DNA from: an uncultured Bacteroidales bacterium
GTDB taxonomy: Bacteria; Bacteroidota; Bacteroidia; Bacteroidales; Coprobacteraceae
Length of the DNA stretch: 64,000 bases
Reading direction: 5' to 3'
Assembly: GCA_949297285.1 (NCBI GenBank)
Contig: CASFRL010000107.1
Span: 1 to 64,000, forward strand
Under the pieces are notes generated by a model. The model was not told the DNA's origin. It was given only the letters and a program-made list of their open reading frames with translations, and ran no database searches. Position 1 is the first letter of the stretch, and the number at the start of each line of letters is the position of its first letter. Below are positions 44,511-51,979 of the stretch, piece by piece. Position numbers and translations under genes: made by a program.

Positions 44511-45098
44511 ATGGAGTTAAAATACAACATTATTGATTATCTGGATGAGTCAATCTCTGTTTTATCCCATGAAGACAAAGAAAAACTAAGATCTTTATTG
44601 TCAGAAAATTTCTATAAAAAAGGAGATATAATCAGCAATATAAAAGAAATAGAGGAGCACATATACATCATCTTTCAAGGCGGGGCAAGAGTTTTTTATC
44701 TTAAGGACGGCAAAGAAATTACATTTTCGTTTGCATTCGACCAAGATTTGATCCTTTGCCTAAACTCACAAGCCAACAAGCCGGAACTGCCTAAGGTTAT
44801 CGAATTTCTCGAAGACTCTCATGTCATAACCATAAACATCAATTTATTCTCGCAACCTTCAAAAATCAAAGACATCGCAACGGCACAACGCATCAATCGT
44901 ATATTGCTCGATTACAGCTACTTTTTAGAAGAACGAATCATCAATCTGCAATGCCGGAGTGCTCGTGAAAGATACAAATGGGTAGTAACCCGTTATCCTC
45001 GCTTATTGCAGCGTGCCACATTGGGGCAAATCGCTTCATTTTTAGGAATTACCCAAGAGACAATCAGTCGGATACGCTCTGAAAAATACCCCCTTTAA
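44511..45098 (+). CDS. Crp/Fnr-family transcriptional regulator
   Basis: A 195-residue protein. The start at 44511 gives the usual Crp/Fnr size; a longer ORF from 44325 runs into the radical SAM gene. The N-terminal sensor domain is a cupin-like fold (EEHIYIIFQGGARVFYL near residues 43-59) with no cysteine cluster, so it cannot bind an FNR-type iron-sulfur cluster and probably senses a small ligand or nothing obvious. The C-terminal winged helix ends with GQIASFLGITQETISRI. The recognition helix carries E183, S186 and R187, the E-x-x-S-R set by which E. coli FNR reads TTGAT. A matching FNR-like box sits at 45189-45202, before the next operon. Confidence 0.85.
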   Translation: MELKYNIIDYLDESISVLSHEDKEKLRSLLSENFYKKGDIISNIKEIEEHIYIIFQGGARVFYLKDGKEITFSFAFDQDLILCLNSQANKPELPKVIEFLEDSHVITININLFSQPSKIKDIATAQRINRILLDYSYFLEERIINLQCRSARERYKWVVTRYPRLLQRATLGQIASFLGITQETISRIRSEKYPL

Positions 45099-45188
45099 AT
45101 AATTTAACCTATATGTTAATTTATAGCCTTGAAAATTGTTAATTTAACACACCATTTAACGAGATTTACAATCTCGAGGGAGAAAATT

Positions 45189-45202
45189 TTGACATATATC
45201 AA
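45189..45202 (+). promoter_or_regulatory. FNR-like operator upstream of the RND efflux operon
   Basis: TTGACATATATCAA matches the FNR consensus TTGATnnnnATCAA at 9 of 10 defined positions. Its centre is about 42 bases upstream of the start predicted from the -7 element at 45225-45232, the classical position for activation. The Crp/Fnr-type gene just upstream carries E-x-x-S-R in its recognition helix. Binding is an inference. Confidence 0.55.
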
Positions 45203-45222
45203 ATTTTAACTCCTTTTATCAC

Positions 45223-45236
45223 GGTACATTTGTACC
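45223..45236 (+). promoter_or_regulatory. Promoter of the RND operon inside a palindrome
   Basis: TACATTTG (45225-45232) matches TAnnTTTG and lies inside the palindrome GGTACATTTGTACC. A small hairpin, CGAGATT/AATCTCG at 45159-45175, is also in this 279-base gap. The leader to 45378 is about 140 bases and carries three direct AGGTTA repeats (45244, 45262, 45273). Confidence 0.5.
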
Positions 45237-45377
45237 CGATTTTAGGTTATTTGAATTTTTAAGGTTATAGAAAGGTTAATAAGATTATGCTAAAGAATTC
45301 ACCTTTGGGCAGCACAAAAAGTTGATTTTCCTTTCAAAAAGAACAATAGGTATTAAGATAATCAACATTAGATAAAT

Positions 45378-46565
45378 ATGAAAATTAGGAAAACTATGAT
45401 TATTCAATCACAACGAGTAATTTTATCAACAGCAATATGCTTGTCACTCTTTTCATGCGGTAAACAACAACAAGGTGGTCTCAACATGGTAAAAGAGTAT
45501 CCTGTAACGACATTACAACCTACATCGACAGAGTTAAAGACCTCTTATCCGGCAACTATCAAAGGACGCCAGGATATCGAAATCAGACCGAATGTAAGCG
45601 GATTTATCACCCAATTATGTGTAGATGAAGGAGCAATCGTTCGTAAAGGACAACTTCTATTTGTCATTGATCCTGTTCAATACGAAGAAGCTGTAAAAGT
45701 AGCTGAAGCTGCTGTCGAAGTAGCAAAAGCCAATGTAGCAACAGCACAATTAACAGCTGACAACAAAGCTGAATTAGCGAAAAAGAACATCATCAGTGAA
45801 TATGACAAACAAATGGCATTCAACACTTTGGCAACTCAAAAAGCAACATTAGCCCAAGCTCAAGCCCAACTCATCAATGCCAAACAAAATTTGTCATATA
45901 CTAAAGTTGTCAGTCCTTCGAATGGCGTTGTGGGTACCATTCCCTTACGGGTAGGAAGTTTGGTAAGCCCAAGTTCGGCAACACCATTAACGACAGTATC
46001 CGACAACTCGGAGATGTATGCTTATTTTGCTTTAAATGAAAAACAGATTCTTGATTTAGCCCGCGAACACGGAGCCAACAATCTTGTGGAGAATCTTCCT
46101 GAAGTAGAATTAAAATTGTCTGACGGAACAATCTACAATCAAAAAGGAAAAGTTGTTACCATAAGCGGAATAATAGAACAAACGACAGGTACATCGAATT
46201 TGCGTGCAGCATTTCCAAATCCTGACCAATTGCTTCGCAGCGGAAATACAGGAAATATTCTTATACCTATCAAAGCAGATTCTGTAATTCTGGTTCCGCA
46301 ATCCGCAACTTACGAAATGCAGGATAAACGATTTGTTGCGGTTGTACAAGATGATTCGACCGTAAAAAGTACAGAAATAAAAATCTTAAGTATAAACGAC
46401 GGTAAAAACTTTGTCGTAACATCTGGATTAAAAGCCGGAGATAAAATTGTTCTTGAAGGAGCAGGAACGTTAAAAGATGGAGCTCAAATAAAACCGATCT
46501 CTCCTGAAGAAGCTGCGGCTAAGCTGAAAGCAATGACACAAACACAACCTGCCGAAAAAAAATAA
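45378..46565 (+). CDS. RND efflux periplasmic adaptor, lipoprotein
   Basis: A 395-residue membrane fusion protein. The signal peptide ends in the lipobox LFSC with lipidated Cys27, anchoring it on the inner membrane. It contains the lipoyl/barrel-sandwich part (PNVSGFITQLCVDEGAIVRKG near residues 70-90), an alpha-helical hairpin rich in Ala and Gln (about residues 110-170), and a beta-barrel and membrane-proximal domain. It links the AcrB-like pump to the TolC-like channel. First gene of the operon, 26 bases before the pump. The class resembles AcrA/MexA adaptors. Confidence 0.92.
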   Translation: MKIRKTMIIQSQRVILSTAICLSLFSCGKQQQGGLNMVKEYPVTTLQPTSTELKTSYPATIKGRQDIEIRPNVSGFITQLCVDEGAIVRKGQLLFVIDPVQYEEAVKVAEAAVEVAKANVATAQLTADNKAELAKKNIISEYDKQMAFNTLATQKATLAQAQAQLINAKQNLSYTKVVSPSNGVVGTIPLRVGSLVSPSSATPLTTVSDNSEMYAYFALNEKQILDLAREHGANNLVENLPEVELKLSDGTIYNQKGKVVTISGIIEQTTGTSNLRAAFPNPDQLLRSGNTGNILIPIKADSVILVPQSATYEMQDKRFVAVVQDDSTVKSTEIKILSINDGKNFVVTSGLKAGDKIVLEGAGTLKDGAQIKPISPEEAAAKLKAMTQTQPAEKK

Positions 46566-46591: not shown

Positions 46592-49500
46592 ATGAAGTTA
46601 GATAGATTTATAAACCGCCCTGTGCTTTCGACGGTTATTTCCATTTTGATAGTCATTTTGGGAATATTAGGGTTGGTATCCTTACCTATTACACAATATC
46701 CGGATATTGCGCCTCCTACTGTTCGTGTATCGGCAACCTATACCGGAGCCAATGCTCAGACCGTACTAAACAGTGTAATTGCACCGTTGGAAGAGCAAAT
46801 AAATGGTGTAGAAAACATGATGTATATGACTTCGACGGCCTCTAATAACGGAGAAGCCAGTATCGAAGTTTATTTCAAACAAGGGACAGATCCGGATATG
46901 GCTGCGGTAAACGTACAAAACCGTGTTACTAAAGCGCAAGGATTTTTGCCATCTGAGGTTACCCAAATTGGTGTAACAACACAGAAACGGCAGACCAGTA
47001 TGTTGATGGGTTTTGCCATTTACAGTGAAGATGACAGCTATGACATAAAGTTCCTTGAGAACTATGCCAATATCAACATCATTCCTGAAATCAAGCGAAT
47101 ACCCGGTGTCGGAGACGCAATGGTTATGGGTGCCGACTACTCTATGCGTATTTGGCTAAAACCAGATATTATGGCTCAATATAAATTGATGCCGACCGAT
47201 GTCTCAGCGGCTTTGGCAGAACAAAATATTGAAGCGGCTCCCGGTCAATTCGGAGAAAACGGAAATCAATCGTTCCAATATATCATGCGGTATAAAGGAC
47301 GTCTACAAACCGAAGAAGAATTTGGCGACATTGTTATAAAGGCAACAGAAAACGGAGAAATTTTACGGTTGAAAGATATTGCAACCATAGAACTCGGCCG
47401 ACTCACTTACGGGTTTAATAACCGTGTCAACGGACATAATGGTGTAACTTCTATGATCTTCCAGACTGCCGGATCAAATGCGACACAGATCATTAAAGAC
47501 ATAGAAGCCTACCTTGCCCAAGCCGAGAAACAATTCCCGACAGGGATAAAGACCGAGATCTTGTTGAATACCAATGACTTCCTTTTTGCTTCTATCGAAG
47601 AGGTTGTCAAGACTTTAATCGAAGCCTTTATTCTGGTGTTCTTTGTTGTATATGTATTCTTGCAAGATTTCCGTTCTACTTTAATTCCGGCAATTGCCAT
47701 TCCGGTGGCGCTTATCGGAACATTCTTCGCATTGTACCTGATCGGATTCAGCTTGAACCTGTTGACTTTATGTGCTTTGGTACTTGCTATTGCGATAGTC
47801 GTCGATGATGCGATAGTCGTCGTCGAGGGCGTCCATGCGAAACTTGACCAGGGATATAAATCGTCCCGCAAGGCATCCATCGACGCCATGAGTGAATTAG
47901 GCGGAGCTATCGTTTCTATTACATTGGTGATGATGTCGGTATTTATACCGGTAAGTTTTATGGGAGGTACGTCGGGTACTTTCTACCGCCAATTCGGATT
48001 GACCATGGCGATCGCTATTGGTTTCTCTGCAATCAACGCTTTGACCCTTAGCCCGGCATTGTGTGCCTTGTTCTTAAAACCGCACCAAAAAGAAGGTGAA
48101 AAGAAAATGTCCTTGATCGATCGTTTCCATACATCTTTCAACACGGCATACGATATTGTATTGAAAAAATATAAACACAACACATCTTTCTTTATAAAAC
48201 ACAAATGGTTGTCTTTAGGAACCGTTGTTGTAAGTGTTGTTATTCTGGTCTTCTTGATGAGATCGACTCCAACCGGACTCGTACCGAACGAGGATACAGG
48301 AACAATTTTTGCCATGGTATCCATGCCTCCCGGCACATCAATGGAACGGACCGATGCCATGATGCAGAAAGTTGACAGTATAATTGCCGCAATTCCGGCT
48401 GTAAAAGGACGTACCCAAATTACCGGATATAACTTCGTTGCCGGACAAGGGAACTCTTATGGTTCGATTATCGTCAAATTAAAAGATTGGAAAGAACGTA
48501 GTGCAGAAGAAAGCTCAGATAACATTATCAAGATGTTATACGGGAAAACAGCACAAGCGTTCAATGAAGGACAACTTCTCTTTTTTGCACCGCCTATGAT
48601 TCCGGGATACGGGGTAAGTAGTGGTTTTGAGTTTAATTTGCAAGACAAAACCGGAGGTGACTTGAATGAATTTTACAAGATCGCACAGAACTTCCTCGCA
48701 AAATTAAATGCACGTCCTGAAATCGCTGCGGCCCAAACATCATTCAGCCCGGTATTCCCTCAATACATGATCGATATCGATGCTGCCAAGTGTAAACAAG
48801 CCGGTATCAGCCCGAAAGATATTCTCACAACATTGCAAGGATATTATGGAGGTTTGTATTCTTCGAATTTCAACCGGTTCGGGAAACTATACCGTGTTAT
48901 GATACAAGCCGATCCTCAAAGTCGTATCAGCCCTGAAACATTAAACAATATAAAGATACGTAACGGCAATGAAATGGCGCCTATCACCCAATTTGTATCG
49001 TTGAAGAAGATCTACGGACCTGACAACATTACCCGTTTCAACATGTACACATCCATGAAAGTAAACGGATCTCCGGCAACAGGAATTAGTTCGGGTGAAG
49101 CCATTAGAGCCATAGAAGAAGTTGCAGCAGAGACCTTACCGGTCGGATACGGATATGAATTCTCCGGTATAACAAGGGAAGAGCAAAGTACAGGAGCAAA
49201 CACGACCGTAATCATCTTTATTCTGTGTCTTGTCTTTGTATATTTGTTATTAAGTGCTCAATATGAAAGTTACATTCTTCCATTGTCTGTAATACTTTCC
49301 ATACCTTTCGGATTGGCAGGAAGTTTTATTTTCGCACAGATAATGGATGTTGAAAACAACATTTACTTGCAAATATCCTTGATTATGTTGGTAGGATTGT
49401 TGGCGAAAAATGCGATCCTTATCGTAGAGTTCGCTCTCGACCGAAGAAAGACCGGTATGAGCATCGTCGATGCAGCCATACAAGGAGCTGCAGCTCGTTT

Positions 49501-49762
49501 ACGTCCTATTCTTATGACTTCGTTGGCAATGGTTATCGGACTTCTGCCTATGATGTTTGCCCACGGTGTAGGAGCTAACGGAAACAGCACATTGGGAACC
49601 GGTGCCGTAGGAGGAATGTTTATCGGTATGATTTGCCAAATCTTCATCGTACCTGCCCTTTTCGTTGTATTTGAAATCATACAAGAGAAATTCAAACCGA
49701 TCGAATGGCATGACACAGACAACCGTGAAATCGAGGCGGAAATCGAACAATATACCAAATAA
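46592..49762 (+). CDS. RND multidrug efflux pump, HAE1 (AcrB-like) family
   Basis: A 1056-residue inner-membrane pump with twelve helices and two large periplasmic loops. It begins with LDRFINRPVLSTVISILIV; helix 4 has AIAIVVDDAIVVVEGVHAKL with the paired aspartates of the proton relay. The C-terminal half has MLVGLLAKNAILIVEFALDR. It drives efflux of toxic compounds, possibly bile acids or drugs, by proton motive force. Its stop overlaps the next ORF's first ATG, but the likely start there is 27 bases later. Confidence 0.95.
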   Translation: MKLDRFINRPVLSTVISILIVILGILGLVSLPITQYPDIAPPTVRVSATYTGANAQTVLNSVIAPLEEQINGVENMMYMTSTASNNGEASIEVYFKQGTDPDMAAVNVQNRVTKAQGFLPSEVTQIGVTTQKRQTSMLMGFAIYSEDDSYDIKFLENYANINIIPEIKRIPGVGDAMVMGADYSMRIWLKPDIMAQYKLMPTDVSAALAEQNIEAAPGQFGENGNQSFQYIMRYKGRLQTEEEFGDIVIKATENGEILRLKDIATIELGRLTYGFNNRVNGHNGVTSMIFQTAGSNATQIIKDIEAYLAQAEKQFPTGIKTEILLNTNDFLFASIEEVVKTLIEAFILVFFVVYVFLQDFRSTLIPAIAIPVALIGTFFALYLIGFSLNLLTLCALVLAIAIVVDDAIVVVEGVHAKLDQGYKSSRKASIDAMSELGGAIVSITLVMMSVFIPVSFMGGTSGTFYRQFGLTMAIAIGFSAINALTLSPALCALFLKPHQKEGEKKMSLIDRFHTSFNTAYDIVLKKYKHNTSFFIKHKWLSLGTVVVSVVILVFLMRSTPTGLVPNEDTGTIFAMVSMPPGTSMERTDAMMQKVDSIIAAIPAVKGRTQITGYNFVAGQGNSYGSIIVKLKDWKERSAEESSDNIIKMLYGKTAQAFNEGQLLFFAPPMIPGYGVSSGFEFNLQDKTGGDLNEFYKIAQNFLAKLNARPEIAAAQTSFSPVFPQYMIDIDAAKCKQAGISPKDILTTLQGYYGGLYSSNFNRFGKLYRVMIQADPQSRISPETLNNIKIRNGNEMAPITQFVSLKKIYGPDNITRFNMYTSMKVNGSPATGISSGEAIRAIEEVAAETLPVGYGYEFSGITREEQSTGANTTVIIFILCLVFVYLLLSAQYESYILPLSVILSIPFGLAGSFIFAQIMDVENNIYLQISLIMLVGLLAKNAILIVEFALDRRKTGMSIVDAAIQGAAARLRPILMTSLAMVIGLLPMMFAHGVGANGNSTLGTGAVGGMFIGMICQIFIVPALFVVFEIIQEKFKPIEWHDTDNREIEAEIEQYTK

Positions 49763-49788
49763 TGGTTTTCAATATTAAAGACAGAAAA

Positions 49789-51177
49789 ATGAAGAAACAA
49801 ATAATTTTATATACTATATGTTTGACAGCTATGATGAGTAGCTGTCACATATATAAGGCTTATGATCGCCCCGAAATAAATACTCAAGGGTTGTATCGCG
49901 ATCCGATATCGGATCAAGACACCCTTATGTCGGACACGACCAATATGGGGAATCTGCCTTGGGAACAGGTTTTCACCGATCCACAATTACAAGCTCTGAT
50001 TCGATTAGGATTGGAACAGAACTCCGATCTGCAAACTGCTATACAAAATGTAAAAGCAGCCGAAGCCGGACTTTTATCGGCTCGATTGGCTTATGCTCCG
50101 TCTCTTGCACTTGCGCCACAAGGAGGTGTAAATCATGTAGAAGGGTCAAAAAGCAGTTGGACTTATACGCTTCCGGTATCGGCCAGTTGGGAAATCGATC
50201 TATTCGGTAACCTTTTGAACTCAAAACGGGGTGCAAAAGTCGCTCTATTGCAAAGTCAGGCCTACAAGCAAGCTGTGCAAACACAAGTGATTTCAACAAT
50301 CGCCAATTGTTATTATACCCTGCTCATGCTGGATAAACAATTGGCAATAACGGAAGAGACTTCTGTCCTCTGGGACAAAAGTGTCGAAACCATGCGTTCG
50401 ATGAAAGAAGCCGGTATGGTAAATGAAGCGGCTATCGTACAGAGCGAAGCCAGCAGCTACATGATCAAGGCATCAATACCAGACTTGAAACAACAAATCC
50501 GGGAAACAGAGAACTCTCTTTCTCTGGTACTTAAAGAGGCTCCTCAAAAAATTGAGAGAGGAACTTTAGACGGACAAAAACTTCCGGAAGTGCTTAATTC
50601 GGGTATCCCCGTTCAACTTTTATCGAACCGACCTGACGTAAAAGCCGCAGAAATGTCCTTGGCTGCAGCCTATTACAGCACAAATCAAGCACGATCGGCT
50701 TTTTACCCGCAAATATCAATAACCGGGACACTGGGCTGGACAAACAGCATTACCGGAATGCCTATTCTTGATGTTCCTAAAATGATCATGTCTGCTCTCG
50801 GGACGTTGACCCAACCCTTATTTTATCGGGGAGCTAACTTGGCAAAACTTAAGACGGCCAAGGCTCAACAAGAGATCGCTGCAATCAATTTCCAACAGAC
50901 GATTTTAAATGCCGGAAGTGAAGTCAGCAATGCTCTTTATCAATACCAAGCAGCCAACGAAAAGACAATCCAGCGCGAAAAACAGATAAATTCTTTAGAA
51001 AAATCTGTTGAATATACACAGCAATTGCTAACTTTAGGGACCTCTACTTATTTGGAAGTTCTTACAGCCCAGCAATCATTGCTCAGTGCTCAACTATCCG
51101 GAATATCGGATGAATTTCAGAGAATACAGGCTGTCATAAACTTATACCACGCATTAGGTGGAGGACGAACAGAGTAA
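49789..51177 (+). CDS. TolC-like outer-membrane efflux lipoprotein (NodT family)
   Basis: A 462-residue protein. The start at 49789 gives the lipoprotein signal MKKQIILYTICLTAMMSSC; the ATG at 49762 would add nine residues. It contains two outer-membrane efflux repeats: PWEQVFTDPQLQALIRLGL near residues 55-73, and SNRPDVKAAEMSLAAAYYS with ARSAFYPQISITGTLGW. It forms the trimeric exit duct of the tripartite pump encoded by the previous two genes. The following lpxA-like gene is 16 bases downstream. Confidence 0.93.
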   Translation: MKKQIILYTICLTAMMSSCHIYKAYDRPEINTQGLYRDPISDQDTLMSDTTNMGNLPWEQVFTDPQLQALIRLGLEQNSDLQTAIQNVKAAEAGLLSARLAYAPSLALAPQGGVNHVEGSKSSWTYTLPVSASWEIDLFGNLLNSKRGAKVALLQSQAYKQAVQTQVISTIANCYYTLLMLDKQLAITEETSVLWDKSVETMRSMKEAGMVNEAAIVQSEASSYMIKASIPDLKQQIRETENSLSLVLKEAPQKIERGTLDGQKLPEVLNSGIPVQLLSNRPDVKAAEMSLAAAYYSTNQARSAFYPQISITGTLGWTNSITGMPILDVPKMIMSALGTLTQPLFYRGANLAKLKTAKAQQEIAAINFQQTILNAGSEVSNALYQYQAANEKTIQREKQINSLEKSVEYTQQLLTLGTSTYLEVLTAQQSLLSAQLSGISDEFQRIQAVINLYHALGGGRTE

Positions 51178-51193
51178 ATTAACCTTAAAATCC

Positions 51194-51979
51194 ATGTATA
51201 TGATTAGTCCTTTAGCTTATATCGATTCAAACGCAAAAATCGGGGAAAATGTCACTATTCACCCGTTTGCCTATATCGATAAAAATGTAGAAATAGGTGA
51301 CAATTGTACGATTATGCCTTATGCCAGCATTCTGAATGGGACTCGCATGGGCAGCAACAATATTGTATATCAATCGGCCATTATCGGTGCAACACCGCAA
51401 GATTTCAAATTTAAGGGTGACGACACTCTTTTAATCATCGGCGACAACAATACCATTCGAGAAAAAGTAATTATCAACCGTGCTACCAACAAAGGAGATA
51501 GCACAGTTATCGGAAATGGGAACTTTCTGCTCGAAGGTGTGCATGTTGCACATGATACCCATATCGGAAACAATTGTATCTTAGGAAACGGTACTAAAAC
51601 CGCCGGGAACTGCAAACTCGACGACAATTCGATTTTGGGAAGCGGTGTTATTCTAAAACATGGTTGCCATGTGGGGAGTTGGGCTCTTTTGCGAGACGGA
51701 TGCCGTGCCAATAAAGATGTTCCGCCCTTTATCGTAGCAGCACACAATCCGATCACGTATTATGGCATCAATGCAATATTGATGACTAAAACCGGAGGAT
51801 TTAAGGATGATATCGTAGACGATATCGCCAAAGCATATCGCCAAATTTATCAGTGTGGAACGAGCCTTGAAAATGCTCTTATGAGAATCAAGGAACTGAT
51901 ACCGGAAAGTCCTGAAATAAAATATTTGATTCATTTTGTAGAAAACTCCGATAAAGGAATCATCGGTATTACAATTTGA
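51194..51979 (+). CDS. LpxA-like UDP-GlcNAc acyltransferase
   Basis: A 261-residue left-handed beta-helix protein built of hexapeptide repeats (IGENVTIHPFAYID and many more). VHVAHDTHIGNN contains the histidine expected for acyl transfer, and the C-terminal helical part ends with ENSDKGIIGITI, as in LpxA. The usual GLRRRGF region reads LMTKTGGF and the usual HQFCHVG reads KHGCHVG, so it is divergent. It may be a second copy of LpxA rather than the canonical one, which usually lies with lpxC/fabZ (not seen here). It lies 16 bases after the TolC-like gene and before a strong terminator, so it is the fourth gene of the efflux operon. Confidence 0.78.
   Translation: MYMISPLAYIDSNAKIGENVTIHPFAYIDKNVEIGDNCTIMPYASILNGTRMGSNNIVYQSAIIGATPQDFKFKGDDTLLIIGDNNTIREKVIINRATNKGDSTVIGNGNFLLEGVHVAHDTHIGNNCILGNGTKTAGNCKLDDNSILGSGVILKHGCHVGSWALLRDGCRANKDVPPFIVAAHNPITYYGINAILMTKTGGFKDDIVDDIAKAYRQIYQCGTSLENALMRIKELIPESPEIKYLIHFVENSDKGIIGITI

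Follow-up and report, generated by a model that had tools for sequence, protein, structure and literature searches.

The question raised by this locus is whether a Crp/Fnr-family regulator encoded immediately ahead of an RND efflux operon serves that operon alone and, if so, through which site and promoter. The locus lies in a 64,000-nucleotide stretch (the window) of the genome of an uncultured Bacteroidales bacterium of the family Coprobacteraceae, a gut-dwelling member of the genus Coprobacter. The regulator gene (44511..45098, + strand; ATG at 44511, 195 aa by translation) is followed on the same strand by genes for an RND periplasmic adaptor (MFP; 45378..46565; TIGR01730), an RND permease (46592..49762; PF00873, TIGR00915), an outer-membrane efflux protein of the NodT/TolC type (49762..51177; PF02321, TIGR01845) and, directly after this outer-membrane factor, a second LpxA-type acyltransferase (51194..51979; NF003657/TIGR01852). 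The family assignments indicate an RND efflux system with adaptor, permease and outer-membrane factor in one operon, of which the LpxA-type gene is probably the last gene. The order adaptor-permease-outer-membrane factor-lpxA is conserved as far as the Muribaculaceae. The LpxA paralogue is a second copy in all five Coprobacter genomes, each of which also has a canonical lpxA near lpxD, and its presence in the operon suggests that the pump may have a function connected with the envelope.

An AlphaFold2 model of the regulator (pLDDT 83.8) has the Crp/Fnr fold with a helix at residues 182-189, and its top matches in the PDB (Foldseek) are to FNR of Aliivibrio fischeri, with further FNR/CRP matches. 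The sensor domain resembles PF00027 (E = 8.7e-05), yet remains under the gathering score, the curated cut-off for this family. The modelled architecture, with a cNMP-binding-like beta-roll, a long dimer helix and a C-terminal HTH, is that expected of a member of the CRP/FNR superfamily. The recognition helix corresponds, by translation, to residues 182-189 (QETISRIR). The initial annotation had singled out E183, S186 and R187, and the translation bears this out, the segment 182-187, which begins with Q182, reading Q-E-T-I-S-R. These three residues are the counterparts of E209, S212 and R213, the FNR residues named for DNA specificity (PMC4505428), and, together with the TTGAY-N4-RTCAA site described below, they point to an FNR-type DNA specificity. 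The ExxSR helix alone is weak evidence, because it is generic in the subfamily (70/85 relatives), and it was dropped as a stand-alone argument. The cysteines of the oxygen-sensing cluster are missing, as had also been noted: the N-terminal set that ligates [4Fe-4S] in FNR was sought in the 195-aa sequence and not found, the only cysteines being Cys83 and Cys148. An FNR-type Fe-S cluster is excluded by this lack, and the regulator is not FNR proper, the oxygen sensor. Canonical control by cAMP is unlikely.

The predicted operator, TTGACATATATCAA (45189..45202, + strand), agrees with the FNR consensus TTGAT-N4-ATCAA at nine of ten positions, the value given in the initial annotation. A pattern search for further sites, proposed at the same time, found TTGACATATATCAA once in the 2.9-Mb genome, with no matches to reversed-pattern controls, and the site is kept at all Coprobacter orthologous loci. 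The Bacteroidota -7 promoter element TACATTTG (45225..45232, + strand), the sole TAnnTTTG within the intergenic region 45099-45378, begins 22 bp past the operator, with identical spacing in relatives. The operator centre lies 29 bp before this element, or about -42 relative to a start site predicted a few bases after it, in agreement with the distance of about 42 bases originally suggested. No TTTG was found 19-21 bp upstream of TACATTTG, where a -33 box would be expected, and the operator does not overlap the -7 element. The pump promoter thus has a class II geometry, with a predicted site near -41.5 and the upstream core element missing. Two other inverted repeats are present in this intergenic DNA. 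GGTACATTTGTACC (GGTACA-TT-TGTACC, 45223-45236) covers the -7 element and was rejected as an alternative operator, being kept in the closest relative only. The repeat CGAGATT-TAC-AATCTCG (45160-45176), common to the window and its closest relative only, was rejected as a terminator or operator; it has no T-run and is not kept in more distant Coprobacter.

The four other Coprobacter genomes retain the regulator (47-91% identity) and the pump, with sites reading TTGACATATATCAA, TTGATAAAAATCAA, TTGACAAATATCAA or TTGACAAAAATCAA, each 22 bp before TAnnTTTG. The combination of TTGAY-N4-RTCAA and TAnnTTTG is, therefore, found at an identical 22-bp gap in 5/5 Coprobacter genomes, within intergenic DNA that has otherwise diverged. 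The exact architecture (TTGAY half-site, zero mismatches) occurs once per Coprobacter genome, at the pump only.

The association of regulator and site extends well beyond this genus. Eighty relatives were retrieved purely by protein similarity and, with the addition of loci from genome searches, 70 loci encoding an ETxSR helix were available for analysis. The pattern TTGA-N6-TCAA, sought between -10 and +350 of the regulator stop codon, was present just 3' of the regulator gene in 64 of these 70 Bacteroidota loci, as against 0.9 loci expected from first-order shuffles and about 1.6 from the rate in flanking DNA. In 56/65 sites, the distance from the site centre to the start of a -7 element (at least five of six positions matched) is exactly 29 bp, versus none in the reversed control. 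The full strict site-plus-promoter pattern was detected at 36 loci, with no matches in shuffles or in 1.36 Mb of flanking DNA (both strands). The genes downstream of ETxSR regulators vary, and include genes for YiaAB-domain proteins (the largest group) and amidases, among others, and, in the Coprobacter group, RND adaptors; what stays the same is thus the regulator-operator-promoter unit, and what varies is its cargo. The largest group of adjacent targets in Bacteroidota (L052, L055, L058-L060 and others) encodes a functionally uncharacterised YiaAB two-helix membrane protein. Sampled evenly, 198 Bacteroidota genomes yielded about 40 exact matches and no reversed controls, and in 5 of 29 loci examined from this sample the site directly follows the end of a Crp/Fnr gene, so the same geometry serves non-adjacent targets too.

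The site also changes with the protein. The RND-associated regulators group together in one clade of an 85-protein tree (support 100/98), in which the S-type Coprobacter proteins are basal and proteins with a KETLYR helix are nested. The KETLYR loci have no adjacent TTGA site and carry ATGAY-N4-RTCAT instead, with a gap to TAnnTTTG that is the same as in Coprobacter or, in a sister family, one base longer (N22/23). The change of the helix from Q/P to K and from S to Y, a single event on the tree, accompanies the change of the half-site from TTGA to ATGA. Rodionov et al. (2005; PMC1274295) described how CRP positions 180 and 181 co-evolve with the motif. In the present case, the change to Lys at CRP-180 goes hand in hand with that to Tyr at FNR-212, so the effects of the two on the site are inseparable; Tyr186 alone was rejected as the cause of the site change, because Lys182 changes alongside it in every case.

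In 14 of the 15 KETLYR genomes, ATGAY-N4-RTCAT-N22/23-TAnnTTTG has exactly one match genome-wide (control matches, 0), and all 14 matches lie ahead of the gene for a pump-adaptor orthologue (about 50-60% identity); the search found no match in the genome of L050, which encodes a KETLYR protein. At least 7 of the 14 matches are located apart from the regulator gene, whereas linkage cannot be judged for an eighth, in which site and regulator are both at contig ends. The TTGA version, where present in KETLYR genomes, is not located before the pump. A family of the Muribaculaceae type provided a broader comparison, the regulator being present in 27 of its 149 genomes. The site was found before the pump adaptor in 24/27 genomes with the regulator and in 0/122 without it (Fisher p = 9e-25, a value that ignores shared ancestry); the exact site was not found in the other 3 of the 27. 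Regulator and site lie within 1.5 kb of each other in just 5 of the 24 genomes, and 17 are clearly unlinked (at least 23 kb apart, or on separate contigs with at least 1.5 kb of regulator-free upstream DNA), the site being too close to a contig end for linkage to be judged in the remaining 2. In this family, the site is still found at the pump when the regulator gene is located elsewhere, and is missing where the regulator is missing. It is slightly more likely than not that two base-reading substitutions (Q/P to K at CRP-180, S to Y at FNR-212) shifted the specificity for the half-site at its first base, from T to A, and that the pump promoter followed, even when unlinked. If true, this would be a natural two-residue specificity switch within a circuit of one regulator and one operon, with the rigid class II geometry (operator, 22 bp, TAnnTTTG) that is common to much of Bacteroidota.

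Several other explanations for this arrangement merit consideration. The site may be real but read by another, global, Crp/Fnr protein, the adjacent gene being a bystander. The genome encodes at least four more Crp/Fnr-like proteins; the one on contig C33 carries the helix GVTPETVSRIR and has a TTGACAATTGTCAA next to its own gene. The same promoter geometry also occurs at non-adjacent genes elsewhere in the phylum. However, the exact site and promoter are found in Coprobacter at the pump only, the site sequence shifts with the helix of the adjacent protein, the co-occurrence of site and regulator (24/27 vs 0/122) extends to unlinked pairs, and the recognition helices differ in the other paralogues examined, making a global reader of the site very unlikely. 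The regulator might, alternatively, repress the pump and be released by a pump substrate, in the manner of BmeR, a TetR-type protein of Bacteroides fragilis. Repression is frequent among local regulators of RND pumps, BmeR5 is known to repress bmeABC5 (PMC4790292), and the position of the site, taken alone, is compatible with this mode of action. Nevertheless, repression seems very unlikely, given that the site is centred at the distance expected of a class II activator, that its 22-bp gap hardly varies, that the -33 TTTG box is missing and that the site is clear of the -7 element.

A functionless palindrome arising by chance has practically no probability left. The intergenic DNA is AT-rich and one half-site departs from the FNR consensus, but this origin is contradicted by the conservation (64/70 vs 0.9) and spacing (56/65 vs 0) statistics, and it was rejected on the basis of the shuffle, flank and reversed-control counts. 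The dedicated local activator of the RND pump proposed in the initial annotation has comparative support: the site is adjacent to the regulator gene and in register at the activator position, changes with the helix and co-occurs with the regulator even when the two are unlinked.

The protein encoded at 44511-45098 is, hence, very probably a one-component Crp/Fnr-type activator, switched by a ligand, acting at a class II site and dedicated to the RND operon that follows. Judging from its sequence and those of its relatives, it appears to be an activator that is reserved for the pump and usually has a single target. We infer binding, activation and ligand control as follows. A dimer of the regulator would read TTGAC-ATAT-ATCAA via the helix QETISRIR and would occupy the place of the missing -33 contact, in the class II position, with its centre at about -42. 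The bound dimer may then recruit the Bacteroidota primary-sigma polymerase to a TAnnTTTG promoter lacking the -33 TTTG. The regulator would be switched on by a ligand of the N-terminal beta-roll, which would not be an FNR-type [4Fe-4S] cluster and is probably not canonical cAMP. Once activated, it would raise the expression of the adaptor, permease and outer-membrane factor, and probably that of the LpxA paralogue. The ATGA and TTGA architectures recur at further promoters elsewhere in Bacteroidota, so this geometry is shared by additional Crp/Fnr proteins, and some cross-regulation may occur.

The predicted system resembles E. coli FNR and its class II promoters in its CRP/FNR fold, its E-xx-S-R recognition residues and a near-identical box (TTGAT-N4-ATCAA) centred at about -41.5. 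It differs in that the regulator has no cysteine cluster, ends just past the recognition helix (AlphaFold2 model) and appears local and mostly single-target, whereas FNR is global; the promoter here is of the Bacteroidota type, with TAnnTTTG. Regulators of the HcpR/DNR type likewise lack Fe-S cysteines and control small local regulons, the HcpR1 motif (TTGAC-N4-GTCAA) belongs to the same class as the site described here, and their helix residues 180/181 co-evolve with the motif (PMC1274295). Their targets are hcp or denitrification genes rather than an RND pump, and the changes reported here are to Lys at CRP-180 together with Ser to Tyr at FNR-212. BmeABC of B. fragilis is likewise an RND pump of the Bacteroidales with a local regulator dedicated to it, but this regulator, BmeR, is a TetR-type repressor, unlike the Crp/Fnr-type activator predicted here (PMC4790292). 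No description of this regulator-pump pair was found in the open-licence literature. CRP/FNR class II activation is of a known kind; the new elements would be its dedication to a single pump and a traceable change in specificity.

Promoters and regulators are poorly mapped in this phylum, for which these results suggest a testable wiring rule: a Crp/Fnr site 22 bp upstream of TAnnTTTG would mark an activated promoter, and the helix sequence would predict the site. They also indicate that, in gut commensals, for which the local pump regulator described is a TetR-type repressor, an RND pump probably has a dedicated activator, and the circuit would tie this pump to a second LpxA.

Two further sets of sites were observed. 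In Bacteroidales, ATGAY-N4-RTCAT-N22-TAnnTTTG (L174-L203) has about 60 matches in 344 genomes, versus 2 for controls, many of them preceding genes for ArsR-type regulators, glutamate dehydrogenase or redox functions; these matches probably represent a distinct Crp/Fnr regulon that shares the geometry. A second ETxSR Crp/Fnr protein of the genome from which the window is derived (L010, 1281-1980) has TTGACAATTGTCAA 34 bp after its stop codon, only 15 bp before TACTTTTG and upstream of a gene for a small secreted protein, a spacing unfit for class II activation.
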